NCBI GenBank assembly: GCA_019637095.1
Contig: JAHBWG010000084.1
Location: 1 to 40,028, forward strand
Reading direction: 5' to 3'
DNA from: Sandaracinaceae bacterium
Lineage (GTDB): Bacteria > Myxococcota_A > Polyangia > Polyangiales > Sandaracinaceae
DNA length: 40,028 nt
Made by a program: the position numbers and the translations under genes. The notes under the pieces were generated by a model. It saw nothing but the letters and a program-made list of their open reading frames with translations. It did not search any database and was not told the origin of the DNA. Positions 2,547 to 31,503 of the stretch are shown here, one piece after another; the first letter of the stretch is position 1; every line of letters begins with the position of its first letter.

Positions 2547-3059
2547 TCAGCGGGTGAGCTCGCGGATGACGTCGTCGAGGTGCTCCCGCAGATCGGCCAG
2601 CCCCTTCCGAACCGAGGGGTGGATCTCTACGAGCCGCTCCGCCTGCGCGCGGACGCGAGCCGGGTCCAGCTCGAGGACGTACGCGTTGCGGAAGAAGTGG
2701 CGAAAGCGGCGCAGCTCGTGGAGCTCGGGGAGGATCGACGCCGCGACGACCGCGGGCCGGAGCGAGGGGACCTCGACCCGCATCTGCGCCAGGAGCTCCG
2801 CGTGCCAGCCGGGCCCCGCCGGCACGTGGTCGTCCACGACCCGCGCGATCCGCTCGAGCGCCGTCTCGAGGGCGGTGTAGTAGCCGTGGACGTTCGTCGC
2901 CACGAGCACGAGCTCGGCGCGCGGCAGGCCTCGCTCGGCCTCCCAGCGCTCGAGGAGCTCCGCCGTCTCCTCCCGGCGCGCGTCGAGCGCCTCGCGTTCG
3001 ACGTCGAGCTCGAGGGCGAGCCGCGCGAGGCGCGAGAGGGTCGCCGGCTCACCCACCAC
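2547..3059 (-). CDS. hepT: HepT-like HEPN ribonuclease toxin
   Basis: An all-helical protein of 170 residues whose C-terminal third carries the HepT-family region LHELRRFRHFFRNAY (residues 113-127). HEPN toxins of this type cleave RNA, and in characterised HEPN/MNT pairs the nucleotidyltransferase partner AMPylates a Tyr in the RX4HXY motif to silence them. Here the motif reads R120-x4-N125-A-Y127, so the Tyr is kept but the His is Asn. The start is a GTG overlapping the stop of the upstream mntA-like gene by 11 nt, so the two are translationally coupled in the usual antitoxin-then-toxin order. The family call is good. Whether the toxin is active is open, because some HepT-like subfamilies may naturally have Asn here. 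Confidence 0.75.
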   Translation of the reverse strand: MVGEPATLSRLARLALELDVEREALDARREETAELLERWEAERGLPRAELVLVATNVHGYYTALETALERIARVVDDHVPAGPGWHAELLAQMRVEVPSLRPAVVAASILPELHELRRFRHFFRNAYVLELDPARVRAQAERLVEIHPSVRKGLADLREHLDDVIRELTR

Positions 3060-3958: not shown

Positions 3959-6900
3959 TCACTTCGTGAGGAGGCGCTCGACGCCGGTCCAGCCCTCGGG
4001 CGGCGGCTCGGCTTGGTAGCGCGTGCAGCGGTTGGCGAGGATCATCGGCAGGCGGTCGCGGGGGGAGAGCGCGAGGCACTCGCCGCAGAGCTCGAGCGCG
4101 CTCTCGAAGTCGCGGGCGAAGTAGTCGTCGAGGGCCTGCTCCCAGAGCGTGCGCGTGCGCTCCTTGAGCTCGCGCATCGGGCCGGTCTCGGCGTCGAGGA
4201 TCTCGTAGAGGGTGACCGGCGTCTCGGCGCCCTTGACGATGACGCGGTCGATGCGGCGCGCGACGAAGGCGCTCGGGTCCTCGAGCGCGGTCCAGGTGGC
4301 CTCGCCGACGATCGCGGCGGCCCCGTACTGGCGCGTGAGCTGCTCGAGGCGCGAGGCGAGGTTGACCGCGTCGCCGACGACGCCGCACTTGATGCGGTCC
4401 TTGCCGCCGACGATGCCGAGCAGGAGCGGCCCGGTGTTCACGCCCACGCCCATCTGGAGCGCCGGCCGGTCGGTCCCGACGCCGCGCGCGTTGAAGCGCG
4501 CGAGCGCGCGCTGCATGGCGACCGCCGCGTGGACCGCGCGGTCCGCCGGGCCGTCGAAGAGCGCCATGATCTCGTCGCCGTTGAACGAGTCGATGAAGCC
4601 GCCGTGCGCGACGATCGGCTCCTCCATCGCGGCGAAGTAGTCGTTGAGGATCTCGACGATGGCGCGCGCGCCGAGCCGCTCGACGAGGTGCGTGAAGCGG
4701 CGCAGGTCGGAGAAGAGGACCGTCATGGTCTTCTCGACGTGCTGGCCGAGCGCGACCTCGGCGAGGTCGCCCTTGCCGAGGCTGACGAGGAACTCGTGCG
4801 GGACGAAGCGCGACTGCTGCCGCGTGAGCTGGCGCTGCGCCTCGTAGAGCTTCGCGTTCTCGAGCGAGACGGCGGCCTGCGAGATGAGGAGCTGCATGAG
4901 GCCGGCGCCGCGCTCGGTGAAGACGCCGGGGAGGTTGGCGTGCTCGAGATAGAGCACCGCGGAGGTGGCGCCGCGGTGCGCGAGCGGCAGGCAGTGGACC
5001 GAGCGCGTGTGCTTGGCGACGACGTACGGGTCGGTCGCGAAGAGGCCGCCGCGCTCGGTCGCGTCGGCGACGAGCGTGGGCCGGCCGGTGCGCAATACGT
5101 AGCGGAGGATCCCGACGGGATCCTCGGCCGGGTCGCAGTCGTCGAGCGGCCGCGCGACGCGCTCGGGCTCGCCGGTCGCGTAGCCCTCGAGCGTGATCTC
5201 CCAGCGGCCCGCGTGCTCGATCAGGAGGAGCGCGCGCTCGGCGCCCGCCGCCTCGACCGCGGTGCGGAAGAGCGCGCGCAAGAGCTCGTCGAGCTCGATG
5301 CTCGCCGACAGGCTCTGCGCCGCGCGGACCATCGCGGCGGCGTCGAGGTCGAGGCCGACGACGCTGCCGAGCGTCACGTCGATCCCCGCCCGCGGGCCGC
5401 GCGCGCGCCCGAGCACGTGCGGCAGCTCGGCCTCGAGCGCGGCGGTCTTCGCCGCGGCGCCCCAGCGCTGGTACGCGAAGCGCGCGTCCTCGAGGAAGGC
5501 GCGGCCGATCGACGCGTCGGCGCCGCCGCGGCCGAGGTGGAAGCGGCCGGTGAGCTCGGCGATCAGCGCCTCGTCGTTGACGAAGTCGGTCTCGCGGGCC
5601 GCGTCGAGCGCCTCGCGGTACAGGCGCTCGGCGTCCTTCGGCGCGCCGGTGACGCGCGCGCGCTCCGCCCGCACGAGCAGGAGCCGGTGCCGGAAGTTCG
5701 CTGGCCCCGCCGCGCTCCACGCCTCGAGCTGCGCGAGGCTCGCGTCCATCCGCGCGATCGTGGCCGCGCGCAGCGCCTCGTCCGCGGCGGCGCGCTCGTA
5801 GCACCGCGCCGCGGCGAGCGGGGCGTAGGTGTGGAAGGTCGTGAGGTGGTGCGTCGAGGCGGCGCCCGCCTGGTACGGCGCGGCCTGCTCGGCGACGCGC
5901 CACGCCTCGTCCGCGTCGCCGAAGTGGTAGCGCGCGACGAGCATGTCGGTGAGCACGACGAAGGCGAGGCTCGCGCTCCCGGCGCGCTCCGCGGCGGCGA
6001 GCGCCTCCGCCTCGTCGTAGCCGTCGAAGCTCAGCGAGGCGGGCGTCTCGGTGTGGCCGAGGAACGCGCGCACGAGCTGCTCGAGCGGGCGGTGGAGCGC
6101 GAGCGCGGTGTTCTGCTGGTAGCTGCGCATGAAGCCGCCGAGCTCGGTCGCGGTGCGCTCGATCTCGGCGAGCGGGAAGCCGGCCACGAACGCGTTGGTG
6201 GCCCAGGCCTGGCCGGCGATCGCCGCGAACTCGAGGTCGCCGCTCGCGCGCCCGACGCGGTAGGTGTCGAGCAGGTCGTCGAGCGCGCGCTGGAGCGGGA
6301 CGGTGAAGACGCAGACGTTGTTGTGCACGACCAGGCGCGTGCGCGCCTCGAGGTGGCGGTCCTCCCAGCGATCGAGCAGCCGATGCGCGAGCCGGCCGAT
6401 CTCGTGCGCCTGCGGGAGCATCCCGATCGCGTTCAGCACGATGCCGTACACGGCGAGGCCGAAGGGCGTGCCGACGGACGGCCCCTCCTCGACGGAGGTC
6501 GCGACGAGCTCGCACGCGATGATCGGCAAGAGCGCGGGCAGGGCGTAGTACGCGGGCGAGCTGACCTCGACGAGGAGCGTCGTCGCGGCGAGGACCCGCG
6601 GGTCCTCTGCGTCGGGGAGCGCCTCGATGCGCGCGGCGCCGGCCTCGCCGAGCGCGGTCATCGCGCGCCCCACGGCGGCCCCGACCTCCGCGTCGCCCGG
6701 GTGCTCGGGGAGCGCGACGCCGAGCTCGGCGAGCGCCGCGCGCGCGACCGCGATGGCGCCGTGCAAGTCCTGTTGCGCGATCCGCGCGGCGATGTCGACG
6801 CGCCAGGCGCCCACGCGATCGAGGGTCGTGGCGGCGTGCGCGTGCACCTCCTCGAGGCGCCGGTTCGAGAGCGCGAAGTCGGCGACGAGGTAGGCGCACT

Positions 6901-9283
6901 CTGCGGCGCCGAGGGTGAGGTCGAGGGTCAGCGCGTAGTCGCGCGCCCAGGCGTCGGCCGGCAGGGCGGCGAGCCCGGCCTCGAAGAACACGGAGGCGGC
7001 GCCGAACGCGGCCGCGCGCCGCGCGCGGCGGCCGGCGTCGAGGTTCGAGACCGCGAGCGCGTAGAGCGCCGGCCCGTCGAGGAGCTCGCGCGCCTGGTTG
7101 AGGTGGCCGACCGCCTCGAAGGCGCGCTCGCCGCCCTGCGCGAGGAGGCGCTCGCCGAGGGCGCGGTGGGCGCGGCGCGCCTCGCCCGCGTCGAGGATCC
7201 CGTACGCGGCGCCGAGGATGCGGTCGTGCTCGAAGGCGTAGCGGAAGGCCTCGTCCGGCGTGGCCTCGATCGCGTCGGTCGCCTCGAGCCGCCAGCCCTT
7301 GCCGCGCGGCGCGACCAGGCCCGCCCCGACCGCGGGCGCGAGGTCGCGCTGGAGGCCGGCCGGCGTGAGCCCGAGCAGCGGCGCGACGTCCCGCAGGTCG
7401 AACTCGCCGCCCACGCAGGCCGCGTGCGAGAGCGCGGCGCGCGTCGGCCCGGGCAGCTCCTCGAGCCGCTCGACGAGGAACGCGACGAGGTTCTCGGTGT
7501 GCTCGAGCTCCTCGAGCGCGGCGAGATCCCAGGTCCAGCGCCGGGCGTCCGCGTCCCAGCGCACCGCCTCGCGATCGACGAGCTCGGCGAGGAAGCGCTG
7601 GAGGAAGAACGGGTTGCCCCCGGTCTTGTGGATGCAGCGCTCGGCGAAGGCGTCGAGCTCCGCGTCGTCGCGCGCGAACGCGTCGGCCAGGAGCTGGCGC
7701 AGCGCCGCCTCGCGCGGCGGGCCGAGCTCGAGCACCGGCACCGCGACGCCGGCGTGCTCGAGGCGCCGGCGTGTGATCGTGAGCGGGTGCGCGTCGTCCA
7801 CCTCGTTGCTGCGGTAGGCGCCGACGAGGAGCAGGTGGCGCGTCGCCTCGTCGCACGCGAGGCCCTCGAGCAGGCGCAGCGTCGGCAGGTCCGCCCACTG
7901 CACGTCGTCGAGGAAGAGCACGACCGGGTGCTCGGCCGTCGCGATCGCCGCGACGAGGGCGCGGAACGTGAGCTGGAAGCGGTTCTCGGCCTCGCCCGCG
8001 GGCAGCTCCGGCGAAGGGGGCGAGCCGCCGAGCAGGAGCTCGAGCTCCGGCAAGAGCTCCGCGAGCACGCCGGCGTTGTGGCCGACCGCCTCCGCGAGCC
8101 GCCTGCGCCAGCGCGCGATCTCGGCCTCGTCGCTCGTCAAGACGGATTGCAGGAGTCGACCGACGGCGTTCCCGAGCGGCTCGTACGTGATGCCGAGGCG
8201 CAGCGGATCGAACTTGCCCGCGAGGAACGCGCCGCGCCGCGCGGTCACCGGCTCGAGCAGCTCCTGGACGAGCGAGGTCTTGCCGATGCCCGAGTAGCCG
8301 CCGACCAGCACGAGCTCGCGCGCGCCGCCGGCGACGCGCTCGAACGCCTGCGCGAGCGCCGCGACCTCGGCCTCGCGCCCGTAGAGGCGCTCGGGGGCCT
8401 CGAGGCGCGCCGGGCGATCCGCGGCGCCGAGCGGGAAGGGCTCGATCCGCCCGCTGGCGCGGAAGCGCGCGAGGCACTCCTCGAGGTCCACCGCGAGCCC
8501 CTCGGCGGTCTGGTAGCGGTTCTCCGCCGACTTCGCGAGCAGCCGGGTCACGAGGGTCGACAGGACCTCGGGGAGGCTGTCGTCGTGCGCGTTCATCGGC
8601 AGCGGCTTGCGCGCGAGGTGCGCGTGCACGAGCTCGAGCGCGTCGTGCGACGAGAAGGGCCGCCGGCCGGTGAACAGCTCGTAGAGCGTGACCCCGAGCG
8701 AGTAGAGATCGCTGCGGCGGTCGACGCGCCGGCTGGTGCGTCCGGTCTGCTCGGGCGCGATGTAGTGGAGCGTCCCCTCGAGCCGGTGCACGTCGTCGAG
8801 GATGGGGCGCTCGCGCTCGAGCTCGGTGGCGATGCCGAAGTCGATCAGCCGCACCTCCCCCGTCGCGCGGGACAGCACGATGTTCGTGGGGTTGACGTCC
8901 TTGTGGATGACGCCGCGCTCGTGCACCGCGGCGACCGCGCGCGCGATCGCGCAGGCGAGCTCGAGCTTGCGGCCGAACGCGGGCGGGTCCTGGGCGAGCA
9001 CGCGATCGAGCGCGACTGCGTCGGCGTCCTCCATCACGAGGACGGGCACGCCGTCCCGCTCGACCGACCCGAGCATCTGCACCGTGCGAGGGCCGCTCGC
9101 GCGCCGCGCGAGGCGCAGCTCGCGCACGAGCGCCGCGATCGTCGCCTGCGACGGATGCGGGTGGTTCGTGGTCTTGAGGACGACGCGCCGGCCGTCCTCG
9201 TCGCGGATCGCGCGCAGCACGAGCGAGGTCGCGCCGCGGTGCAGCTCTTCGAGACCCGAGAAGCCGGTGACCGCGACGCTCAT
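3959..9283 (-). CDS. Ser/Thr kinase-AAA ATPase-GAF-class III nucleotide cyclase, 1774 aa
   Basis: A single large signalling protein. Residues 5-270: protein kinase with K37, catalytic HKD (D129), N134, DFG (148-150) and APE (176-178). Residues 300-600: ATPase with Walker A GGYSGIGKTS (328-337) and Walker B-like VVLFLDDVQWAD, as in AAA/LuxR-type regulators. A long helical, TPR-like middle follows. GAF domain about 1318-1480. Class III cyclase about 1518-1700, with metal Asp in LFSDLRRF (D1526) and NGDEIMALF (D1570), and GDAVNLASR (1637-1645). The plan matches the kinase/ATPase/GAF proteins that often end in a histidine kinase; here a cyclase takes that place. No signal peptide or membrane helix, so cytoplasmic. 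The usual substrate Lys three residues before GD is Ser and the Asp of DxxG is Gly, so ATP or GTP use is unsettled. It begins 3 nt after the last lipoxygenase gene. Confidence 0.9.
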   Translation of the reverse strand: MSVAVTGFSGLEELHRGATSLVLRAIRDEDGRRVVLKTTNHPHPSQATIAALVRELRLARRASGPRTVQMLGSVERDGVPVLVMEDADAVALDRVLAQDPPAFGRKLELACAIARAVAAVHERGVIHKDVNPTNIVLSRATGEVRLIDFGIATELERERPILDDVHRLEGTLHYIAPEQTGRTSRRVDRRSDLYSLGVTLYELFTGRRPFSSHDALELVHAHLARKPLPMNAHDDSLPEVLSTLVTRLLAKSAENRYQTAEGLAVDLEECLARFRASGRIEPFPLGAADRPARLEAPERLYGREAEVAALAQAFERVAGGARELVLVGGYSGIGKTSLVQELLEPVTARRGAFLAGKFDPLRLGITYEPLGNAVGRLLQSVLTSDEAEIARWRRRLAEAVGHNAGVLAELLPELELLLGGSPPSPELPAGEAENRFQLTFRALVAAIATAEHPVVLFLDDVQWADLPTLRLLEGLACDEATRHLLLVGAYRSNEVDDAHPLTITRRRLEHAGVAVPVLELGPPREAALRQLLADAFARDDAELDAFAERCIHKTGGNPFFLQRFLAELVDREAVRWDADARRWTWDLAALEELEHTENLVAFLVERLEELPGPTRAALSHAACVGGEFDLRDVAPLLGLTPAGLQRDLAPAVGAGLVAPRGKGWRLEATDAIEATPDEAFRYAFEHDRILGAAYGILDAGEARRAHRALGERLLAQGGERAFEAVGHLNQARELLDGPALYALAVSNLDAGRRARRAAAFGAASVFFEAGLAALPADAWARDYALTLDLTLGAAECAYLVADFALSNRRLEEVHAHAATTLDRVGAWRVDIAARIAQQDLHGAIAVARAALAELGVALPEHPGDAEVGAAVGRAMTALGEAGAARIEALPDAEDPRVLAATTLLVEVSSPAYYALPALLPIIACELVATSVEEGPSVGTPFGLAVYGIVLNAIGMLPQAHEIGRLAHRLLDRWEDRHLEARTRLVVHNNVCVFTVPLQRALDDLLDTYRVGRASGDLEFAAIAGQAWATNAFVAGFPLAEIERTATELGGFMRSYQQNTALALHRPLEQLVRAFLGHTETPASLSFDGYDEAEALAAAERAGSASLAFVVLTDMLVARYHFGDADEAWRVAEQAAPYQAGAASTHHLTTFHTYAPLAAARCYERAAADEALRAATIARMDASLAQLEAWSAAGPANFRHRLLLVRAERARVTGAPKDAERLYREALDAARETDFVNDEALIAELTGRFHLGRGGADASIGRAFLEDARFAYQRWGAAAKTAALEAELPHVLGRARGPRAGIDVTLGSVVGLDLDAAAMVRAAQSLSASIELDELLRALFRTAVEAAGAERALLLIEHAGRWEITLEGYATGEPERVARPLDDCDPAEDPVGILRYVLRTGRPTLVADATERGGLFATDPYVVAKHTRSVHCLPLAHRGATSAVLYLEHANLPGVFTERGAGLMQLLISQAAVSLENAKLYEAQRQLTRQQSRFVPHEFLVSLGKGDLAEVALGQHVEKTMTVLFSDLRRFTHLVERLGARAIVEILNDYFAAMEEPIVAHGGFIDSFNGDEIMALFDGPADRAVHAAVAMQRALARFNARGVGTDRPALQMGVGVNTGPLLLGIVGGKDRIKCGVVGDAVNLASRLEQLTRQYGAAAIVGEATWTALEDPSAFVARRIDRVIVKGAETPVTLYEILDAETGPMRELKERTRTLWEQALDDYFARDFESALELCGECLALSPRDRLPMILANRCTRYQAEPPPEGWTGVERLLTK

Positions 9284-9286
9284 CGC

Positions 9287-11020
9287 TCAGGAGTTGATGC
9301 TCGCGGTGATGCGGGACGGGAGCAGGCAGGTGTACGGCAGGCGCCGCGCGCGGTTCCTCGCCTCGATGATCGCCTCGGCGTCCGCGAGCTCGCGGCGGAA
9401 GCGCTCGAGCAGCGGCGCCACCCGCGGGTCCGTGAAGTGCCCGTCGGGCACCTCGCCGAGGAAGCTCACGTGGATCGAGTCGACGGAGTAGACCTGCGCG
9501 AGCTGCTCCCAGCCCAGGCCGCGCGGCGGCAGCATGTCGAGGAGCGTCGAGTCGTCCACGGGGACGCCGGGCGGCGGCATCGGGATGCGCTGGACGGCGG
9601 GCATGTTGGGCACGAACGCCATCCAGTCGAACCAGTCGTAGTTGATCGCCGCGTGGTAGCTCGACGCGCGGTGGATGATGCGCGCCGCGAGGTCCGCGAG
9701 GCCCGCGCGCGAGTCGAGCCGCACCCCGCCGACGAGGCGCGGCAGGCGCCCGCCGTCCGGCGACGCGATCTCGGCGACCATCGCGCGCAGCTCCACGTCG
9801 GCCGCGACGTCGGCGTCGCGCGGGTAGTAGAGCGCGAGGTAGCCCTCGACCCAGCGCCGCAGCGCGGCCCACACGGTGAGCTGGTCGTCGCGGAACGGGT
9901 GCTCGAGCACGGCGGCGTCGTCGACGCCGGCGGCCGCCGCGGCGAGCGCGGGATCGAGATCGTCGAAGCTCACCTCGCGGATCGACTCGCGCAGCACCGC
10001 GAGCGTCGCCTCGAGCGCGGGCGCGAGCACGCGATCTTGCGTCCCGTTCGGCGTCACGAGCTCCTTCTTCGAGTAGTCGTTCGCGCCGAGCGTGTAGCGG
10101 AAGTGCGGGCTCAGCAGCGCGAGCACGGGGTGGCGCGCCGAGAGCTGCCGCCGCGCCGCGAGGATGAACCGCTGCACGATCATGTGCGTGTAGCCGAAGT
10201 GGACGACGATGCCCTCGAGGTTCGCGTCCGCGACCTGCACGACGGTCTTCGCGAGGCGCCAGCGCGCGCCGTCGGCGGGCGTGTAGATCGGCTCGCGCGG
10301 GCCGGGCCGCTGCCCGCACTGGATCGCGACGGGCAAGAGCCCGCGATCCGGCGTCGCGCAGAAGAGCGCGAGCGGCGCCGCCATGTGCTTCTGCACCGCG
10401 TCCTTCTTCGCGTCGGGCGGGTAGACGCCGCAGGGGATCCCGTCGAAGCGCGCGTAGTCGGCGAGGAAGAGGCGCCCTTCTTCGCGCGCCGCGTCGAGGG
10501 TGAGCCCGGGCCCGAGCGCGGCCTCGAGGTGCGCGCCGGTGACCGGCAGCCGATCGTCGGCCGCGTCGAGCCGGCACAGCAGCGTGGGCACCGCGCCCGC
10601 GACGCGCTGCCACGCGAACGCCCAGTCCTCGCGCCACACGTCGATCGAGGCGGGCCGGCGGATCGCGCGGAACATGCCCTCGTACTCTTCGATCGAGCCC
10701 ACGCGGCCGGTGTCGCCCGCGTTCTCGAGCGCGGCGACGAGCCCGCGCATCGACGGCACCTCGTGCACCAGCGCGCCGCCGAGCTCGACGCCGAGCTCGA
10801 CCACGGACGCGCCGGCGCGGTTGGCCTTCAGCGCGGCCGTCGCCTTCACCGACTGCTCGATGTACGGCAAGTCGAATTGCTCGCTCTTCGGGAGCTCGCC
10901 GGTGAAGCAGAGGTCCTGGTAGGAGTAGTCGTAGGTGTAGGCCTCGCGGGCCGCCTCGAGCGTCCGGGCGCGGCCCTCGGCGTCCGGGTCGTTCGCCGGG
11001 GTGGTGGGCGGCGCGCTCAC
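9287..11020 (-). CDS. Lipoxygenase 1 (third gene of the operon)
   Basis: A 577-residue lipoxygenase: non-heme iron enzyme that adds O2 to polyunsaturated fatty acids. Metal ligands are visible as H274-x4-H279 (HFGYTH), H456 and N460 (YHAAINYDWFDW), in the order and spacing of plant and animal enzymes; WRLAKTVVQVAD and PHFRYTL are also family-typical. It lacks the N-terminal PLAT domain, as bacterial lipoxygenases do, and has no signal peptide. The chain ends SINS, so the C-terminal residue, whose carboxylate is the fifth protein ligand, is Ser instead of the usual Ile. Start chosen at GTG 11020, which overlaps the stop of lipoxygenase 2 as GTGA. The kinase-cyclase gene follows 3 nt after the stop. 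Confidence 0.88.
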   Translation of the reverse strand: MSAPPTTPANDPDAEGRARTLEAAREAYTYDYSYQDLCFTGELPKSEQFDLPYIEQSVKATAALKANRAGASVVELGVELGGALVHEVPSMRGLVAALENAGDTGRVGSIEEYEGMFRAIRRPASIDVWREDWAFAWQRVAGAVPTLLCRLDAADDRLPVTGAHLEAALGPGLTLDAAREEGRLFLADYARFDGIPCGVYPPDAKKDAVQKHMAAPLALFCATPDRGLLPVAIQCGQRPGPREPIYTPADGARWRLAKTVVQVADANLEGIVVHFGYTHMIVQRFILAARRQLSARHPVLALLSPHFRYTLGANDYSKKELVTPNGTQDRVLAPALEATLAVLRESIREVSFDDLDPALAAAAAGVDDAAVLEHPFRDDQLTVWAALRRWVEGYLALYYPRDADVAADVELRAMVAEIASPDGGRLPRLVGGVRLDSRAGLADLAARIIHRASSYHAAINYDWFDWMAFVPNMPAVQRIPMPPPGVPVDDSTLLDMLPPRGLGWEQLAQVYSVDSIHVSFLGEVPDGHFTDPRVAPLLERFRRELADAEAIIEARNRARRLPYTCLLPSRITASINS

Positions 11021-12735
11021 GAGTGGATGCTCGCGCGGCTGACCGAGGGGCGCAGCCACTCGTAGGGCGAGGGCCGCGTCGCGTTGCGCGCGACGATGCG
11101 CGCGTCCGCGGCGTCGAGCGCCTCGCGGAAGCGCGCCTCGAGCGGGCCCACCCGCGGGTCGTCGAACGTGCCCGGCGCGTAGGCGCCGAAGCGGTTCTCG
11201 TCGAGCCGCGTCTGCTCGTAGAAGAAGGCCCACTGGCTCATCGACAGATCCTCCGGCAGGTAGCTGGCGTGGCGATCGCCCTCGGTCGCCCCGGCCGCGG
11301 GCGGCGGCCCGAAGAGCGCCACCGGCATGCTCGTCGAGTCGCTCATCATCTCGTACTGCGAGTAGTTGCAGATGGTGTGGAGCGGCCCCGCCGACCAGAG
11401 CGCGAACGTCACGAGCTCGACGAGCGCGTCGCGATCCTCGACCTCGGGGATCGACGCGAGCCGGCCGCCCCAGTGGCCGCGCAGATCGCGGCAGAACGCG
11501 CGCAGCTCCTCGTCCTCGCGGACGTCCGCGTCGGCCGCGTAGTAGAGCCCGACGTAGTCGCCGGCGAACGCGTGGATCGCGTCCCACACGTCGAGCCCGT
11601 CGTCGCGGTACGGGCAGTGGCGGAGGGTCCTCGGATCGCCCAGCCCGCGGTCGCGCACGCGCCGCGGCGGCAGCGCGGCCGCGTAGTCGAAGCGCTGCAC
11701 GGCGGCTTGCACGATCCAGAGCGCTTGGCCGCGGCTCACCGAGAGCAGCGTCTCGAGGTCGCCGCCGGGCTTCATCAGGGTGTCGCGCACCTGCGCGTTG
11801 ATCGCGAGCGTGTACTCGGTGTGCGCCGCGAGCAGGCGCCGCAGCGGGTGCGCCGCGGCCAGCTCGCGCCGCGTCGCGAGCGCGAACGCCTCCATGAGGA
11901 AGTGGCAGTGGCCCAGGTGCCAGACGAGCGCCTGCTCGTGCAGATCCGCGGTCTGCGCCGACAGCTTGGCCATCGACCACGCGACGCCGTCCGCGGGCGT
12001 GAGCACCGCGCGCTCCGGCGCGGTGCGGATGGCGACCGGCACGAACGCGCCGCCCGGCGCGGTCGCGAACAGCGCCGCCGCCGGATCGAGCCGCTTCGCC
12101 TCGCCGTCGGGCGTCGCGCCGGTGTGCGCGCCGGCGAGCCAGCGCCAGTCGGCGACGAACAGCCGGCCCTCGCTCGCGGCGCGCGCGAGCGAGTCGCCCT
12201 CGCCCGCGGCCACCGCGTAGGCCGCCTCGTCGGCGGGGACCGCGTCGGGGAGCTCGCGGACCGCGCGGAGCTTCATCGGGTTGGCGCCGCCGAGGCGCTG
12301 CCACGCGAAGAGCTCGTCGTCGCGCGCGGGCTGCGCGTGCCGCGCCGCGACGAGCGGCGGCACGTCCTGTCCGAACCAGCGCAGCGCGGTCGCCGGATCG
12401 GCGCGGCGCCGCGCGTCGCGCTCCGTCGCGGCCTTCACCGAGCCGACGAGCCGCGAGAGCCACCCCTCGCTCGCCGGCGCCGCCGCGCGGGCCTCCTCGG
12501 CGTGCGCGGCGCGGTTTCGCAGGCTCACCGCGGCCTCGTGCGCCTTCATGCGCGCGATCACCGCGCCGAACTGCGCGAGGTAGCTGGCGGAGAAGGCGTC
12601 TGCGCGCGGCACCTCGGCGGCGGTCGCGACGCCCTCGGGCCGGTGCCAGGTGTAGCGGTACGTCGCGCGCGCGCGGGCGCGCTCGGCCTCGCGGTCGGCG
12701 GCGCGCGGATCGTTCTGCGGCAACAGCGTCGGCAC
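11017..12735 (-). CDS. Lipoxygenase 2 (second gene of the operon)
   Basis: A 572-residue paralogue of its two neighbours. Iron ligands: H273-x4-H278 (HLGHCH), H453 and N457 (PLHTICNYSQYE). The N-terminal quarter is Ala/Arg-rich and diverges most. The chain ends SIHS, so again the terminal residue is Ser rather than Ile. The segment after the third His (CNYSQYEMMSDSTSMP) departs from the family's NYxQxxWxxxxPN pattern more than in the other two copies, suggesting altered substrate binding (inference). Start is a GTG seven bases after the stop of lipoxygenase 3; I see no good Shine-Dalgarno sequence, so translation may depend on coupling. Confidence 0.85.
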   Translation of the reverse strand: MPTLLPQNDPRAADREAERARARATYRYTWHRPEGVATAAEVPRADAFSASYLAQFGAVIARMKAHEAAVSLRNRAAHAEEARAAAPASEGWLSRLVGSVKAATERDARRRADPATALRWFGQDVPPLVAARHAQPARDDELFAWQRLGGANPMKLRAVRELPDAVPADEAAYAVAAGEGDSLARAASEGRLFVADWRWLAGAHTGATPDGEAKRLDPAAALFATAPGGAFVPVAIRTAPERAVLTPADGVAWSMAKLSAQTADLHEQALVWHLGHCHFLMEAFALATRRELAAAHPLRRLLAAHTEYTLAINAQVRDTLMKPGGDLETLLSVSRGQALWIVQAAVQRFDYAAALPPRRVRDRGLGDPRTLRHCPYRDDGLDVWDAIHAFAGDYVGLYYAADADVREDEELRAFCRDLRGHWGGRLASIPEVEDRDALVELVTFALWSAGPLHTICNYSQYEMMSDSTSMPVALFGPPPAAGATEGDRHASYLPEDLSMSQWAFFYEQTRLDENRFGAYAPGTFDDPRVGPLEARFREALDAADARIVARNATRPSPYEWLRPSVSRASIHS

Positions 12736-12742
12736 GGCGCGC

Positions 12743-14506
12743 TCAGATGTGGATGCTCGCCGCGATGAGCGACGGGCGCAGGAACGGGTAGGAGAGCAAG
12801 CGCCCGCCGTCGCGCGCGCCGATGAGGAGCTCGAGGTCCTTCAAGTGTTTCGCGAACGCGTCGGCGAGCGCCTTGGCCGGCCGGTGCTTCCAGTGGAGCA
12901 GCGGGTAGTCGCCGAGGAAATTCCGCCGGATGTTCGAGAGCTGGTAGGCGAGGGTGAAGTGCTCGGTCGCGACGTCGACGGGCGGCAACAGATCCACGAG
13001 CGAGCGCTCCTCGTCCGGCGTCGCGGCGGTCGGCGCGGGCGCGTAGCCGGCGCCGGGGAGGTTCGGGATCATGCCCATGTAAGGGAACTGCGCGTAGTTG
13101 AGCGCGGAGTGCTGCGCGCTCGCGGTCCAGATCATCACCGACAGCAGCTCCGCGAGCTGCGCGCGCCCGCGCGCGACGGGCACGCCGCGCAGGCGCCCGC
13201 CGTCCTCGCCGCCGAGCTCGGCGAGGAACGCCGCGAGCTCCGTGTCGGCCGCGACCGCCGCGTCGTCGGGGTAGTAGAGCTCGACGTAGCCGCCGACGAA
13301 CTTCGTGATCGCGCCCCACACGTCGAGCGCGTCGTCGCGGTAGGGGAACACCGGCAGCGCGCCCGTGTCGGCCACGCGCCGCTTCGCGAGCTGCGTGGGC
13401 GGCGCGCCCTCGTCGAGCCGGAACTCCCCGAGCCCGAGCGCGGTGAGCGTGACGCTCGTCTCGAGCGTGCCGCCGAGCACGTGGTCCACGCCGCCGCCCG
13501 GCGCGATGAGGCTGTTCTTCGCGGAGTCGTTGATCTGGAGCGTCGTCTCGAAGTGCGGCGTGAGCAGCGCGTAGAGCGGGTGGGGCGGCGGGAGGTTGCG
13601 CATCGCCGCGAGGATCACCGCCTCCATCACCGCGTGCGCCTTGCCGAGGTGCTGCCGCGTCTCGTGATCGTTGCCGTCCGAGATCTGCACGATCGTGCGC
13701 GCCATCCGCCAGCGCGCGCCGTCCCGCGGCGTCCAGATCGGGAACGCGTCGCCCGGCTCCTGGCCGCACTGGATCGCGACGGGGAGCAGCGCCGCGGCGC
13801 CGCGCTTGGGCCGCGCGAAGAGCGCGATCGGCGCGTAGAGGTACTTCGGCGCGTCGCCGCTCTTGCCGCTCGGGAGCCCGTCCATGTGGCGGTAGTCGGC
13901 GACGAAGAGGCGGCCCTCCGCGAGCGCCGCCTCGAGCGAGTCGCCCTCGGCCATCGCGCCCAACGCGGCGGCGAAGTGCGCCTCGGTCACCGGCATGCGC
14001 TCGGGCCGCGCGTCGAGGCCCTCGAGCATCATCGGGTTCGCGCCGGCGAGCCGTTGCCACGCGAAGAGCTCGTCCTGCGCCGCGTCCAAGCCCAGGAACG
14101 CGCTCATCAGCGCGGGCTCCTCGAGGATCCCGAAGAAGCGCCGGAAGTCCTCCACGGACTCGAACCGCGTGCGCCTCATGCGCGCCGCGATGCTCTGGCC
14201 GAGCGAGAAGAGCTCGTGCCGCAGGTGCTCGGGCGAGAAGCCCTCGCGCTCCTCTCTGTGCTGCTGCTCCGAGAACTCCTCGAGCCCGCCGAGATCCGCG
14301 GCGACGTGGTTCGCCTTCAGCGTCGCCTCGATCTTCAGGTAGTCGGCGACGTACGGGATGGAATAGCCCTCGCCCTTGGGCACCTCGTCGGCCCACGCCG
14401 CGCCGGGCGGGTACGTGTACGAGTAGCGGTAGCGCGCGCGGGCGGCGTCGAGCGCGGCGCGGCGGGCCGGGCCGTCCGTCGCGTCCTGCGGCAGCGTCGG
14501 GGTCAA
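12743..14506 (-). CDS. Lipoxygenase 3 (first gene of the operon)
   Basis: A 587-residue lipoxygenase with the most canonical active site of the three: H286-x4-H291 (HLGKAH), H466 and N470 (AQHSALNYAQF), and a C-terminal Ile (ends SIHI), as in classical enzymes. Also typical are WRMARTIVQISD and TPHFETTLQIND. No PLAT domain and no signal peptide. The start is TTG 14506, supported by a strong ggagg four bases upstream; the ATGs inside would remove family-conserved sequence. As first gene it should be the best translated. Myxobacterial lipoxygenases acting on linoleic and arachidonic acid are known, so production of hydroperoxy fatty acids is likely, but the position oxidised cannot be read from sequence. 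Confidence 0.9.
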   Translation of the reverse strand: MTPTLPQDATDGPARRAALDAARARYRYSYTYPPGAAWADEVPKGEGYSIPYVADYLKIEATLKANHVAADLGGLEEFSEQQHREEREGFSPEHLRHELFSLGQSIAARMRRTRFESVEDFRRFFGILEEPALMSAFLGLDAAQDELFAWQRLAGANPMMLEGLDARPERMPVTEAHFAAALGAMAEGDSLEAALAEGRLFVADYRHMDGLPSGKSGDAPKYLYAPIALFARPKRGAAALLPVAIQCGQEPGDAFPIWTPRDGARWRMARTIVQISDGNDHETRQHLGKAHAVMEAVILAAMRNLPPPHPLYALLTPHFETTLQINDSAKNSLIAPGGGVDHVLGGTLETSVTLTALGLGEFRLDEGAPPTQLAKRRVADTGALPVFPYRDDALDVWGAITKFVGGYVELYYPDDAAVAADTELAAFLAELGGEDGGRLRGVPVARGRAQLAELLSVMIWTASAQHSALNYAQFPYMGMIPNLPGAGYAPAPTAATPDEERSLVDLLPPVDVATEHFTLAYQLSNIRRNFLGDYPLLHWKHRPAKALADAFAKHLKDLELLIGARDGGRLLSYPFLRPSLIAASIHI

Positions 14507-15151: not shown

Positions 15152-16795
15152 TCAGCGGCGGCGCCACGCGAGGAGCGCGAGGGCGAGCAGCGCGCCGAGG
15201 CCGAGGGGCGATGGGCGCGGCTCGATCGCGCAGCCGCCGCAGCCGCTCGGCGGCGTCGCGGGCGCGGGCGTGAGCGCCGGCGTGGCGGGCGCCTCGGGCC
15301 CTGGCTCGGCTTGGGCCTCCGCGGTCGCGGCGCCCGACAGGATGTCCGCGATCGACGCGAGCCTCGCCTCGAGGCCGACCTCCGGCGCGCTCGTGCGCAG
15401 CACGGGCTCGAGCTGGAGGGTGCCGCGCGGCGCGTACGCGGTGTTCTCCGCCGCGGCGGTCGGGCCGGCGCCGGCGTTGACGCGTCCCTCGGCCGGCGGC
15501 CCGCCCCAGCGACCGCGCACCGGGTCGTCGCACGCGATGGGCCCCGTCCACGGGTGGCGGATCGCGTAGCGCGCCTGGAAGTTGTTGTCGGAGGCCGGGC
15601 GCGAGCGCTCCTCGAGCACGCCGTTCTCCTGCATGAACTCGCGGCCGCCGACGATCGGCGCCGCGCGGCGGAAGACGAGGTCCTCGTCGAGCCCGCTCGC
15701 CGCGTAGCGGTAGTGCAGGCGCGTGAGCACCCAGGGCGAGCTGCCGAAGAAGCCCATGCCGCCGAAGCGACCCCCGCCCGCCGGCGCGCGCAGGCTCGGG
15801 TCGTCCGGCGCGGCGACGTCGCCGCCGAGCGTCACGAGGTCTTGCGACGTCACGACCGGGCCGGGGCACGGATCGCAGCTCGTCGCCTGCCACGCGTACT
15901 CGGTCACGACCGCGCCCGGGTTGCGCTCGAGCGTGCGGTCGAAGAGCGTCGCGTAGAACTCCGCGAAGCGCCCGCGCACGCTCTCGTCGACGTCGAGGTT
16001 CGTCGGGATCGTCACGTTCTCGTAGTTCGCGACGTCGAAGCGCCCCTCGCGCGAGAGGATGTGCACCAAGAGGTCCTGCACGCCCGGGCTGTTCAAGAGG
16101 CCGAGCCGCACCGGCAGCGCGAACGTCTCGGAGGTGTAGTGCACGCGGATCGGCGACAGGATCGCGCGCCCGTTCTCGAACGTGACGCGCTCGACGTTCA
16201 CGCGCGCGACGAAGAACTTGGTGCCCTGCTCGACGTAGGGCCGCAGCGCGCTCGAGGCGCCCTCCGGGATGTTGTACTGCTCGCGCCGCAGCCACGTCTC
16301 GAGCCCGTCGGAGTCGCGCGCGCTGAGGATCACGATCTCGTACTCGCCGACCTCGAACTGCGCCTCGATGCGCACGCCGAGATCGCCGCCGCCCGGGCGG
16401 CCGCCGCCGCCGGCGGAGCGCATCACCGAGCTCGGCGCCGGCGCCGGCATCGGCGGGATGGGCGCGCACGGGTCCTGCTCCCAGTACTCGACGAGCCGCG
16501 GCGAGGCGAGCGTGTTCACGCGCGCGAACACGTCGCGCGGCAGGATGCGCACCTGCTCCTCGCGGATCACCACGGGCACGGGCACGACGAGCGCGAACGC
16601 GGCCGGCGGGCCCTCGTAGTCGTTCTGCATCGAGAGCACGGTCGTCGTACCGTCGCGCATCATCACGACCATCGACGCGTTGTTCGTAAGCCCCTCGTCG
16701 CTGCCCGCGACGTAGAAGCCGCAGAACGCCGAGGCGCTCGCCGGCAGCGCGAGCGCGGCGAGCGCGAGCGCGGTGAGAGTCTTGTGTCCGAGCAT
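15152..16795 (-). CDS. DUF2330 exported protein with MYXO-CTERM-like tail
   Basis: A 547-residue secreted or surface protein. Residues 1-23 are a signal peptide (ALALAALALPASASA), with mature start near FCGFYVAG, the family's hallmark. The N-terminal third has the DUF2330 pattern (VLSMQNDYEGPPAAFALVVPVPV, positions about 53-75; WEQDPC near 105). The C-terminus has a Cys-rich motif (GCGGCA), a hydrophobic stretch (LGLGALLALALLA) and RRR, the layout of the MYXO-CTERM sorting signal that is cleaved to anchor proteins at the cell surface. Start is an ATG with ggagggg upstream. Molecular function of DUF2330 is unknown. The gene stands alone. Confidence 0.85.
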   Translation of the reverse strand: MLGHKTLTALALAALALPASASAFCGFYVAGSDEGLTNNASMVVMMRDGTTTVLSMQNDYEGPPAAFALVVPVPVVIREEQVRILPRDVFARVNTLASPRLVEYWEQDPCAPIPPMPAPAPSSVMRSAGGGGRPGGGDLGVRIEAQFEVGEYEIVILSARDSDGLETWLRREQYNIPEGASSALRPYVEQGTKFFVARVNVERVTFENGRAILSPIRVHYTSETFALPVRLGLLNSPGVQDLLVHILSREGRFDVANYENVTIPTNLDVDESVRGRFAEFYATLFDRTLERNPGAVVTEYAWQATSCDPCPGPVVTSQDLVTLGGDVAAPDDPSLRAPAGGGRFGGMGFFGSSPWVLTRLHYRYAASGLDEDLVFRRAAPIVGGREFMQENGVLEERSRPASDNNFQARYAIRHPWTGPIACDDPVRGRWGGPPAEGRVNAGAGPTAAAENTAYAPRGTLQLEPVLRTSAPEVGLEARLASIADILSGAATAEAQAEPGPEAPATPALTPAPATPPSGCGGCAIEPRPSPLGLGALLALALLAWRRR

Positions 16796-26119: not shown

Positions 26120-26680
26120 ATGCGATGGGAGCCTTCGCGCGCGGTCTGGATCGCGCTCTGTCTGGCCGCGGTGTTCGGCGCCCGCGCGTCGATCACGCGC
26201 GCCGACGCCGTGCCGGCCGACTACGAGCCGCCGCGCTGCGCGGTGCCCGCGTGTCCGCCGGGCACGCACCCCTACGGCGTGGTGGGCCACGGGACGTGCG
26301 GTGAGGGCTGCACGCTCCCGCGCGAGTGCGGAGATCCCGAGCGCTGTGGGCCCGAGAGCGAGTGCCGCGAGACGCGCCTCTGCGTGGTCCCGCAGCTCGT
26401 GCAGGGGCGCGTGATCGCCGACACCGTCTTCGGGGAGTGCGGCGCGGACGGCGCGTGCGCGCGCGGGGAGTGCGTCGTCGCGCGACGCTGCGCGAGCACG
26501 CGTCCTCCGCCGGCGCCGCGGCCGGCCGGTGAGCCACTTCCCACGGAGCTCGGATGTGGCGCCTGCGCGATCCACGCACGGCGAGGGCCGAGCGCAGCGC
26601 TCATCGCGCTCGCGGCGTGGGCCCTCGCGTGGGCGGCGCGACGAGGCCACCGCCGCGTCGCGGCGCGCCGCTCGTCATGA
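26120..26680 (+). CDS. Cys-rich exported protein with MYXO-CTERM-like tail
   Basis: A 186-residue protein. ATG 26120 gives an N-terminal hydrophobic signal (VWIALCLAAVFGARAS). The mature region (30-135) is rich in Cys and Gly (CAVPACPPGTHP, GTCGEGC, CGDPERCGPESEC), as in small disulfide-bonded surface proteins. The C-terminus has GCGACA, a hydrophobic stretch (ALIALAAWALAWAA) and Arg residues, the MYXO-CTERM arrangement also seen in the DUF2330 protein here. Its stop meets that of the convergent kinase gene in the palindrome tcatga (26675-26680), so the genes end back to back with no spacer. Confidence 0.65.
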   Translation: MRWEPSRAVWIALCLAAVFGARASITRADAVPADYEPPRCAVPACPPGTHPYGVVGHGTCGEGCTLPRECGDPERCGPESECRETRLCVVPQLVQGRVIADTVFGECGADGACARGECVVARRCASTRPPPAPRPAGEPLPTELGCGACAIHARRGPSAALIALAAWALAWAARRGHRRVAARRSS

Positions 26681-27994
26681 GCACGCGGCGCGCGTCGCGC
26701 GGCGGCGCTCGAGCACCGCGCGCGCGAGCGCGATGAGCTGCGCCGGCTCGAAGGGCTTGGTGAGGAAGCCGTCGGCGTCGAGGCGGCACAGCAAGCGCCA
26801 GTCCGTCGCGCCCGCGACGGCGCTCGCGACCACGATGGGGAGCGTCTCGCCGCGCGGCCGCGCGCGCAGCGCCCGGGTGAGCGCGGCGCCGTCCAGGCCG
26901 GGCATGTCGAGGTCCGTCACGACGAGGTCGGGCCACAGGTGCTCGGCGGCGGCGAGCGCGGTCTTGCCGTCGGGCGCCGCCTCGATCGTCGCGCCGGGGA
27001 ACGCGCGCGCGAGCATCAGCCGCGTGAGGTCGCGGTACATCGGGTCGTCGTCCGCGACGAGGACGCGCCCCGGCGAGCGGGGCCGCGTCGCGCGCTCTTC
27101 GAGCGCGGCGAGCAGCTCGCGCCGGAACGCGTCGGCCCCGTGCGTGCGCTGATCGGGGAACAGCGTGAGCGCGCGCGCGAGGACGCGATCGACCGCGGCG
27201 GGCAGCTTCGTGTTCTCGCCGCTCGCGGGGGGCGGCTCCGTGAGCCCGCCGATGCGCGCCTGCCGGTAGGGCAGGCGCCCGGTCAGCAGCTGGTAGGCCA
27301 TCACGCCGAGCGAGTACACGTCGGCGCGCGGCGCGAGCTCGGGCGTCGAGCCGGCGCCGAGCCGCACCTCGGGCGCCATGTACGACGGCGTCCCGGACGT
27401 CACCCTCGCGTCGCGCGCCGCCTCGCTCGCGGGCTGCGCGATCCCGAGGTCGCCGATCGCGACGCGGAAGCCGGGGCCGATCAGCACGTTGGCCGGCTTC
27501 AGGTCGCGGTGCACGAGGCCGGCCGCGTGGATCGCCGCGAGCCCGCGGCACACCTGGTCGAGCACGAACGCCGCCTCGTCGATCCCGAGCGGCCCCTCGC
27601 GCTCCTTCAGCAGCGCGCCGAGGGAGCGGCCAGGGATGTGCTCCATCACGAGGTAGGGCACGCCGTCGAGCTCGCCGACCGCGTACACGCCCACGACGTT
27701 CGGGTGGACCAGGCGCGCCATCGCGCGCGCCTCGGAGACGAACGCCGCGCGCGCCTCCGGGAGCTCGACGAGCTCGGGGTGCACGACCTTGACCGCGACG
27801 TCGCGATCGAGCTGCTCGTCGTGCGCGAGCAGGACGTGGCCCATCCCGCCGGTCCCGAGCGCGCTCACCACGCGGTATTGGCCGTCGATGAGGGTGCCGC
27901 GCGCGATCGCGGCCGCGCGCGCCTTCGGTGGGCGAGGGGGCTCGGAGATCGTCTCCGCCTCCCGCGGGTCTCCCTCGCGCGCCCGACGGCTCAC
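26675..27994 (-). CDS. Ser/Thr kinase with C-terminal receiver domain
   Basis: A 439-residue cytoplasmic protein. Residues 35-285: Hanks-type kinase with a Gly-rich loop (LGTGGMGHV), K69, HRD (142-144, catalytic D144), DLG in place of DFG (162-164) and APE (187-189). Residues 288-425: response-regulator receiver with D295/D296/D297, phospho-acceptor D341 in VTDLDMPG, and the KPF loop. A Ser/Thr kinase fused to a receiver lets a two-component signal control Ser/Thr phosphorylation (inference). There is no membrane anchor, unlike many PknB-type kinases. Start is GTG 27994, overlapping the stop of the upstream histidine kinase as GTGA. Last gene of a four-gene cassette. Confidence 0.88.
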   Translation of the reverse strand: MSRRAREGDPREAETISEPPRPPKARAAAIARGTLIDGQYRVVSALGTGGMGHVLLAHDEQLDRDVAVKVVHPELVELPEARAAFVSEARAMARLVHPNVVGVYAVGELDGVPYLVMEHIPGRSLGALLKEREGPLGIDEAAFVLDQVCRGLAAIHAAGLVHRDLKPANVLIGPGFRVAIGDLGIAQPASEAARDARVTSGTPSYMAPEVRLGAGSTPELAPRADVYSLGVMAYQLLTGRLPYRQARIGGLTEPPPASGENTKLPAAVDRVLARALTLFPDQRTHGADAFRRELLAALEERATRPRSPGRVLVADDDPMYRDLTRLMLARAFPGATIEAAPDGKTALAAAEHLWPDLVVTDLDMPGLDGAALTRALRARPRGETLPIVVASAVAGATDWRLLCRLDADGFLTKPFEPAQLIALARAVLERRRATRAACS

Positions 27995-29130
27995 GCGGCG
28001 TCTCCGTGCCGGCTCGCGCGCGCGGGCAGCCACACCGAGAAGGTCGAGCCCTCGCCGGGCGCGCTCTTCACGGCGAGGCGCCCGCCGTGCGCGTCGACAA
28101 TCCGCTTGACGATCGCGAGCCCGAGGCCCGTGCTCTTCTCGCCCGCCGTGCCCGACGTCCCCTCCTTCGCGAACGGGGTGAACAGCGTCGCGAGGAACTC
28201 GGGCGAGATCCCGCGCCCGCGATCGACGACGTCGAAGCGCACGTCGGCGCCGTCGGCGCGCACGCGCACGCGCACCGGCGCGCCCGGCGGGGAGTACTTC
28301 GTCGCGTTCGACAGGAGGTTGTTGAGGACCTGGTCGAAGCGCTCCGCGTCCGCGTCGACGAGCGGCAGCCCCTCGTCCGCCTCGAGCTGGATGTCGATCG
28401 ACTTGCCGGCGGCCAGGATCTTGTTGAGCGCGACGTTCTTCTGCGCGAGCTCGAGCGGATCGGTCGGACGCACGGTGAGCCGCAGCGTGCCGGCCTCGAT
28501 CGAGGCGAGGTCCAGGAGGTCGTCGATGAGCCCGCGCATGAACGCGGAGCTGCGCGCGATGATCTCGACCATCTCGCGGATCTCCGCGGTGGAGTAGGTG
28601 TCGAGCCCGCTCAGGAGCAGGCTCGCGTAGCCGTACACGACGCCGAGCGGGTTGCGCAGGTCGTGCGCGGCCATCCCGAGGAGCTGGTTCTTCTCCGCGT
28701 CGAGCCGCTCGAGGCGCTCCTTCTTCGCCGCGAGCTCGCGCTCGAACCCCTTGCGCGCCATCGCGTAGCGGATCGCGCGCTCGAGGACCCGCGCGTCGAT
28801 GGTGCCCTTCTCGAGGTACTCGGCCGCGCCCTCCTTCATCGCGGCGAGATCCACGCTGCGATCGCCCGTGCCGGTCAGCATGATCACCGGCACGTCCGAG
28901 CCGCGCGCCTGCGCCTCGCGCAAGACGTCGAGCCCGGTGTCGCGGCCGAGCCGGTAGTCGAGCAGGCACACGTCGTGGCGGTTCGCGCAGAGCGCGGTGA
29001 GCGCGCTCCGTGCGTCGGACGCGCGCTCGACCGAGAAGCGCGCCTCGGTCGCCTCGCTCAAGAGCTCTCGGGTCAAGAGGGCGTCCTCGTCGTCGTCGTC
29101 GACGAGGAGCACCTCGATGCGCTCACTCAT
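27991..29130 (-). CDS. Hybrid receiver-histidine kinase
   Basis: A 379-residue cytoplasmic protein: N-terminal receiver (acidic pocket D11-D14, phospho-acceptor D58 in CLLDYRLG, conserved K108), a short coiled-coil (residues 125-150, ERELAAKKERLERLDAEK), HisKA with H156 in AAHDLRNPLG, and an HATPase domain (N275 in LLSNATKYS, GRGIS, STGLGLAIVK). With its receiver at the N-terminus, it can accept phosphate from the upstream kinase and signal on through its own His. Its ATG overlaps the stop of the upstream response regulator by 8 nt. Confidence 0.9.
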   Translation of the reverse strand: MSERIEVLLVDDDDEDALLTRELLSEATEARFSVERASDARSALTALCANRHDVCLLDYRLGRDTGLDVLREAQARGSDVPVIMLTGTGDRSVDLAAMKEGAAEYLEKGTIDARVLERAIRYAMARKGFERELAAKKERLERLDAEKNQLLGMAAHDLRNPLGVVYGYASLLLSGLDTYSTAEIREMVEIIARSSAFMRGLIDDLLDLASIEAGTLRLTVRPTDPLELAQKNVALNKILAAGKSIDIQLEADEGLPLVDADAERFDQVLNNLLSNATKYSPPGAPVRVRVRADGADVRFDVVDRGRGISPEFLATLFTPFAKEGTSGTAGEKSTGLGLAIVKRIVDAHGGRLAVKSAPGEGSTFSVWLPARASRHGDAA

Positions 29131-29575
29131 CGGGCAGCTCCACGATCTCGAACCAGTACCGGCCGATCATCGCGATCTTGTCGACCATCGCTTCGAACGT
29201 GACGGGCTTGCACACGAACGAGCTCACGCCGAGATCGTACGAACGCAAGATGTCTTCCTCCGCTTGGGACGTCGTCAGGACGATCACCGGGATCTTCTTC
29301 AACGCCTCGTGCGACTTGATCTCCGCGAGCGCCTCGCGGCCGTCCTTCCGAGGCATGTTGAGGTCGAGCAGGATGATCCCCGGCCGCGGCGAGCTCGCCG
29401 GGTCCGTGTACGCGCCGCGGCGCAGGAGGTAGTCCATGAGCTCTTCGCCGTCCGCCACCGTCCGGAGGTCGTTGCGGAGCTTGGCCTCCTCGAGCGCCTC
29501 GCGCACGAGCAGCCGGTCGTCGGCGTCGTCGTCGGCGTAGAGGATGGTGATGGGGCGCGTCTGGGGTCGGGTCAT
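29123..29575 (-). CDS. Rcp1/CheY-like single-domain response regulator
   Basis: A 150-residue receiver without an output domain: acidic cluster D15-D17, phospho-acceptor D71 in LLDLNMPRKDG, and K123 in VCKPV. The LNMPRKDGRE motif and the extended loop (MDYLLRRGAY) are typical of Rcp1-type regulators that pair with phytochrome-like kinases. It overlaps the genes on both sides (4 nt ATGA upstream, 8 nt downstream), so it is made together with them and probably shuttles phosphate between the two histidine kinases. Confidence 0.9.
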   Translation of the reverse strand: MTRPQTRPITILYADDDADDRLLVREALEEAKLRNDLRTVADGEELMDYLLRRGAYTDPASSPRPGIILLDLNMPRKDGREALAEIKSHEALKKIPVIVLTTSQAEEDILRSYDLGVSSFVCKPVTFEAMVDKIAMIGRYWFEIVELPDE

Positions 29576-31398: not shown

Positions 31399-31503
31399 CG
31401 GCGAGAGAGGTAAACCCCCACCCGCGGATGCCAACCGCGGCGTCCCCGACCCACCTGCGCCGCGTACTACACCTCGCGCGCACCGTGGGGTGCGCGCTCG
31501 CGA

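Follow-up and report, generated by a model that had tools for sequence, protein, structure and literature searches.

The stretch of DNA analysed here, referred to throughout as the window, comprises 40,028 nucleotides (nt) of contig JAHBWG010000084.1 from the Sandaracinaceae bacterium assembly GCA_019637095.1. On its minus strand lie, head to tail, three genes for lipoxygenases (LOX) and then a gene for a large signalling protein, called the partner below, which joins a Ser/Thr kinase domain and a class III cyclase domain in one polypeptide. In the order LOXa, LOXb, LOXc and kinase-cyclase gene, these are:

12743-14506, minus strand: LOXa, A-type lipoxygenase, 587 amino acids (aa), TTG start, C-terminal Ile; first gene of the operon
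11017-12735, minus strand: LOXb, B-type lipoxygenase, 572 aa, GTG start, C-terminal Ser
9287-11020, minus strand: LOXc, C-type lipoxygenase, 577 aa, GTG start, C-terminal Ser
3959-9283, minus strand: kinase-STAND-cyclase partner protein, 1774 aa, ATG start

The four genes are very tightly packed, as a first-pass annotation of the same DNA had described, and both its coordinates and its junctions were confirmed: a 7-nt gap separates LOXa from LOXb (TGA-7 nt-GTG, 12736-12742), LOXb and LOXc share a GTGA overlap (11017-11020), and a 3-nt gap leads from LOXc into the partner gene (TGA-GCG-ATG, 9284-9286). The arrangement suggests that all four genes are co-transcribed as one operon. Between positions 3000 and 15400 of the window neither a sigma70-like promoter nor a minus-strand terminator-like site was found. 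The scan listed three of the four genes, those of LOXa, LOXb and the partner, each with a third-position GC of 0.98. Beyond LOXa, LOXb and LOXc, the 9.25-Mb genome held no gene matching the lipoxygenase family PF00305.

Each of the three lipoxygenases matched PF00305 far above the cut-off of 23.6 bits (141-185 bits; Pfam E-values of 3.5e-54 for LOXa, 7e-41 for LOXb and 1.3e-48 for LOXc). The complete His/His/His/Asn sets that the first-pass annotation had noticed could be located in all of them (H286/H291/H466/N470 in LOXa, H273/H278/H453/N457 in LOXb, H274/H279/H456/N460 in LOXc), and the alignment showed these iron ligands to be kept across A-, B- and C-type lipoxygenases. In known lipoxygenases the carboxylate of the C-terminal residue, an Ile, serves as the fifth iron ligand. 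LOXa ends in Ile, LOXb and LOXc end in Ser, and Val is usual among the C-type relatives. Since the carboxylate exists whatever the side chain, the Ser end does not exclude activity of LOXb or LOXc.

The partner is built from the following parts:

8498-9250, minus strand: Ser/Thr protein kinase domain, residues 12-262 (PF00069, 5e-38)
7823-8389, minus strand: AAA_16 / STAND-type NTPase, residues 299-487 (PF13191, 3e-37)
5309-7486, minus strand: all-helical repeat region, about residues 600-1325, TPR-like by shape only
4862-5296, minus strand: GAF domain, residues 1330-1474 (PF01590, 3e-9)
4205-4732, minus strand: class III cyclase domain (Guanylate_cyc), residues 1518-1693 (PF00211, 1.6e-16)

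The kinase domain keeps the beta3 Lys K37, the H127-K-D129 motif, N134 and the DFG Asp D148, and by these residues matches the active Hanks-type form. The NTPase has a Walker A motif, VGGYSGIGKTSLV, with K335, and a Walker B motif, LFLDDVQWAD, with D459-D460. No Pfam match was obtained for the repeat region; its model consists entirely of helices but is of low confidence (mean predicted local distance difference test score 51) and was too weak for a fold search. The cyclase domain, in the alignment of partners, retains the metal-binding Asp residues D1526 and D1570 together with the catalytic N1641 and R1645. The Lys and Asp/Thr pair that specifies adenine is replaced by S1566/G1634, which is not the pair expected of an adenylate cyclase, so the nucleotide cannot be predicted and we refer to the domain as a class III cyclase and not as an adenylate cyclase. 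A search of the PDB by sequence with the cyclase end gave no match.

To place the operon among its relatives, matches to PF00305 were taken from 377 Myxococcota genomes and, in addition, from near relatives, and up to 20 kb was fetched around most of them, some of the weakest matches being omitted, and searched with the window proteins, for a total of 74 LOX loci with the window counted. The first-pass annotation had made its reading depend on conservation of the pairing in relatives, and conservation was found: a kinase-AAA (STAND-type) gene adjoins the LOX in 24 of the 74 loci, which span 12 families (f1, f4, f5, f12, f16, f25, f26, f32, f36, f41, f48 and f60 in our numbering) and include several LOX lineages and several gene orders and orientations. 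The two frames overlap or lie no more than about 60 nt apart in 17 of these 24 linked loci, and all 24 fall within 1.7 kb. The entire orthologous operon, LOXa-LOXb-LOXc-kinase-cyclase, is present in a genome of another genus of the same family (G001), whose contig was the only one to match in a contig scan with one LOX as query; an orthologue of the partner occupies the same position in locus L025, and a genome of another family (G055) has LOX-LOX-kinase-cyclase with the order unchanged. Elsewhere the partner lies upstream of the LOX (e.g. L028, L072) or is divergent from it (L044, L061, L063). Two cyanobacterial loci, the Acaryochloris and Nostoc plasmid LOX, had no kinase neighbour.

Adjacency to just any kinase would mean little, as the window's genome has well over 100 kinase-domain matches. 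The repeat region of the partner, which is conserved in the linked partners, is much rarer. A match to it lies within 10 kb of the LOX in 13 of the 26 LOX genomes, where 0.31 would be expected. Many LOX genomes, the window's included, have a single such match, and in 9 of 11 one-match genomes that match is at the LOX; at the other extreme one genome (G361) has 28. We conclude that LOX and kinase very probably form one functional unit.

LOXa, LOXb and LOXc share 32-40% pairwise identity, on which ground a recent triplication was rejected. In a first tree of 78 lipoxygenases LOXa fell in group A and LOXc in group C. A second tree, computed with a mixture model, recovered one clade made up of 12 A-type rows (support 94/95) and another of three B-type rows (99/95), and separated the C-type rows from all other LOX (91/93), with the sisterhood of A and C unsure. 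A- and C-type enzymes occur in one cluster in 11 loci from eight families, and their distances correlate even with close pairs removed (r 0.84, p 1e-4). Judged by these sequence comparisons, LOXa and LOXc are members of an old, co-inherited LOX pair. The only A+C locus without a kinase neighbour, L082, encodes a 306-aa protein (11411-12331, plus strand) that has no Pfam match and overlaps the stop of the C-type LOX.

Comparison of the linked partners showed that their constant part is kinase-AAA-repeat, with kinase catalytic residues and Walker motifs mostly intact in the alignment. GAF and cyclase domains are present in most. For the partners of L027, L028, L029 and L060, Pfam gave Pkinase and AAA_16 and neither GAF nor cyclase, and neither domain was found in those of L070, L058, L068 and L086. 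The first-pass annotation had proposed that oxidised fatty acids are sensed through the GAF domain; because several linked partners do without one, GAF had to be rejected as the shared, general oxylipin sensor. In L072 the partner has a Ser/Thr kinase-AAA-GAF-histidine kinase layout ending in HisKA-HATPase, and a gene for a protein with Response_reg and Guanylate_cyc domains lies immediately upstream of it, so that the cyclase output appears to be kept there by way of a phosphorelay. Domain content across the loci supports a class III cyclase as a recurrent output of LOX-linked partners. Of the oxylipin-cyclic nucleotide circuit in the original proposal, the phylum-wide LOX-kinase pairing and the recurrent cyclase hold up, while the GAF domain as general sensor does not.

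An all-against-all comparison of open reading frames across the linked loci revealed a third recurrent gene in seven of them (L045, L048, L051, L063, L067, L073 and L077). Pfam gave no match for its product, which is nevertheless similar to the catalase-related allene oxide synthase of Plexaura homomalla (E-values of 1e-38 for L048 and 1e-62 for L067); the other five homologues were assigned by sequence grouping with these two members. Their alignment shows equivalents of the distal haem Arg, His and Asn that PMC5617202 names, and a proximal-haem-like R-x-x-x-Y motif is present in four of five aligned homologues; that of L063 has Gly at the expected proximal haem Tyr. In L067 the gene stands between the LOX and kinase genes. 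Other oxidative enzymes accompany LOX-kinase pairs of a different LOX lineage: a P450 lies near LOX and kinase in L029, a FAD-dependent ALO-type oxidase is found in L029 and L068, and homologues occur in L068 and L086. An aldehyde dehydrogenase is present in the linked loci L044 and L058. The coordinates of the flanking oxidase genes are:

L029 14385-15947, plus strand; L029 7399-8859, minus strand; L068 7788-9164, minus strand: P450 / FAD-dependent ALO-type oxidase genes flanking LOX-kinase pairs

The allene oxide synthase homologue is distributed unevenly: seven of the 14 linked loci that hold one LOX have it, but none of the ten that hold at least two does (p 0.019, uncorrected). None was found in 12 genomes with the A/C pair, one of which is the window's, where a search beyond the operon likewise found none. 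In skin, ALOXE3 acts after ALOX12B. By analogy, the absence of the homologue from multi-LOX linked loci and A/C genomes suggests that a second LOX may stand in for the hydroperoxide-processing enzyme.

The substrate is probably made in-house. The window's genome contains a complete Pfa-type synthase cluster for polyunsaturated fatty acids (PUFA) at G000:C120:7239-22305 (L126 4239-19305), in which PfaD scored 611 bits (cut-off 449) and PfaA 1273 bits (cut-off 1010), and which also holds a Pfa3-like protein that combines FabA-like stretches with an acyltransferase domain; from this complete cluster we take the LOX substrate to be probably endogenous. The pfa clusters of myxobacteria have been tied to PUFA production (PMC8436480). 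Across the 377 genomes PfaD was found in 44 of 60 genomes with LOX and in 80 of 317 without, a comparison made with no phylogenetic correction.

Taken together, these observations make it about an even chance that the operon encodes a PUFA-oxylipin signalling module connected to a STAND-kinase transducer. In such a module the cell's own Pfa synthase would supply PUFA, which the lipoxygenases, having no evident signal peptide, would convert to hydroperoxides in the cytosol. LOXa and LOXc would work as a pair, the second enzyme probably processing the product of the first, in an order that we infer. The helical repeats of the partner, with the GAF domain where one is present, might then detect the oxidised lipid itself, or a redox or membrane state that results from it, with the AAA domain acting as the switch; the output would be Ser/Thr phosphorylation plus, in most versions, the product of the class III cyclase. 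The LOX product as signal and as ligand, the second messenger and the direction of the circuit are thus all putative. As to the direction, sensing of the LOX product by the partner seems to us slightly ahead of control of the enzymes by the kinase, at close to an even call. A broader proposal is possible but falls short of probable, namely that this is an eicosanoid-like bacterial system spread across Myxococcota, in which PUFA from Pfa would enter an oxylipin pathway of two enzymes (LOX-A plus LOX-C, or a LOX plus either a coral-type allene oxide synthase or a P450) read by a dedicated, adjacent STAND-kinase-cyclase receptor. It would then be a functional analogue of eukaryotic lipid-mediator signalling with a second messenger.

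What the sequences establish is the order of the genes, their domains and intact catalytic residues, the linkage across the phylum, the co-inherited LOX pair and the complete Pfa synthase. Several observations weigh against a signalling module of this kind. In 50 of the loci the LOX has no such partner in view, although some of these are on short contigs, and several partners lack GAF and cyclase. Some linked genomes have no PfaD, so other sources of PUFA, or prey lipids, are possible there. The linkage statistics treat genomes as independent and carry no phylogenetic correction. Kinase distances are uncorrelated with LOX distances (r -0.06, close pairs removed), and in a quick kinase tree with long branches the linked partners do not form one clade, the linked state having changed no fewer than seven times on starred branches. 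As the A and C distances agree and those of the kinase do not follow the LOX, we conclude from these comparisons that the LOX pair has been inherited together and that the partner kinase has been exchanged within its superfamily, which makes a receptor finely tuned by co-evolution to a single oxylipin less likely. On the kinase side, the incongruence of trees and distances led us to reject descent of LOX and kinase as a unit from one ancestral pair; the LOX-A/LOX-C pair is retained.

The likeliest alternative places the kinase upstream. The STAND-kinase would sense prey, stress or membrane damage and switch the LOX on by phosphorylation or control of expression, and the oxylipins would be effectors, antimicrobial or membrane-remodelling, and not signals. 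STAND proteins classically sense via their repeats, the kinase-AAA-repeat portion is shared by all partners with GAF and cyclase variable, and the kinase catalytic residues are mostly kept, all of which this explanation accommodates. However, LOX and kinase distances do not co-vary as those of a dedicated enzyme-substrate interface tend to do, and a cyclase that is retained in most versions, and was re-created once by a receiver-cyclase gene, would be needless for a mere LOX switch; we regard control from upstream as somewhat less probable than product sensing. The incongruent trees, and the origin of the partners in a large signalling superfamily (compare the 28 repeat-region matches in G361), would also suit an operon for stress or predation that needs LOX and signalling simultaneously without any direct interaction. 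Co-expression is nevertheless a poor explanation for why only kinase-AAA proteins recur at these loci, even in the divergent arrangements of L044, L061 and L063 that break a simple operon, and we consider such uncoupled co-regulation unlikely. Chance adjacency or neutral hitch-hiking draws on the abundance of kinase domains in these genomes but is refuted in practice by the rarity of the partner's make-up, by its position in the one-match genomes and by the excess over expectation described above. The signalling module, with the partner reading the LOX product, remains our preferred working model, at the even chance given to it above.

The closest known systems each share part of this arrangement. 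Myxococcus xanthus and M. fulvus have two LOX isoforms each (PMC6612559), and these resemble the operon in LOX family, in phylum and in the presence of more than one LOX per genome, which is common in Myxococcota; the view in the first-pass annotation that bacterial LOX are usually single copy needs qualifying to that extent. The Myxococcus enzymes were characterised as single enzymes, no mention of a kinase-cyclase partner was found in PMC6612559, and LOXb and LOXc of the window differ in having a C-terminal Ser in place of Ile. Oxylipin-dependent quorum sensing (ODS) in Pseudomonas aeruginosa, which relies on diol synthases with oleic acid as substrate and on OdsR, a regulator of the LysR type (PMC6377657), also sets bacterial oxylipin genes beside a regulator and is a candidate for a system that works alike. 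It differs in that the window has LOX, which are PUFA enzymes, and an unrelated regulator, the STAND-kinase-cyclase; neither diol synthase genes nor an OdsR-type LysR regulator belong to the operon, which consists of LOX and kinase-cyclase only.

On the partner side, the cyanobacterial dual kinases of the HstK kind (Ser/Thr kinase-GAF-HisKA; PMC2176072) and the fungal histidine kinases Mak2, Mak3 and Chk1, of which Mak2 and Mak3 reportedly take part in oxidative-stress signalling (PMC5383687), share an N-terminal Ser/Thr kinase, a GAF domain and a C-terminal signalling output, a plan seen also in the L072 partner. The window's partner, in contrast, ends in a cyclase instead of a histidine kinase, and no LOX linkage was seen in either paper. 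The TOMM system kinase/cyclase fusion (TIGR03903) is likewise a kinase-AAA-cyclase fusion tied to a biosynthetic locus, but the partner reached 130 bits against an equivalog cut-off of 705.75 and is a distant relative only. Fusions of catalase-related allene oxide synthase and LOX (Plexaura homomalla 1u5u/3dy5; PMC5617202) show the same LOX/catalase-type pairing as the seven linked relatives, and an Anabaena catalase-LOX fusion is cited in PMC11719350. Unlike the coral fusions, the linked relatives have separate genes beside the kinase-cyclase, and in the window's genome no such enzyme was found.

A literature search, with most subscription journals outside its scope, found no description of a LOX-kinase operon, and the recurring pairing points to an undescribed bacterial system tying oxidised fats to internal signalling. 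The conserved genetic link between LOX, hydroperoxide-processing enzymes, PUFA synthesis and kinase-cyclase makes the role of LOX in bacteria testable in culturable myxobacteria. Should the partner indeed sense the product, bacteria would possess lipid-mediator signalling that runs through a second messenger, and new LOX and allene-oxide-type enzymes could be drawn from these loci.

Two other features of the window may be recorded. A DUF2330 protein with a MYXO-CTERM sorting domain is encoded at 15152-16795 on the minus strand, 645 nt upstream of the operon. Another signalling cluster, at 26675-31434 on the minus strand, encodes kinase-receiver, receiver-histidine kinase and PAS-histidine kinase proteins.

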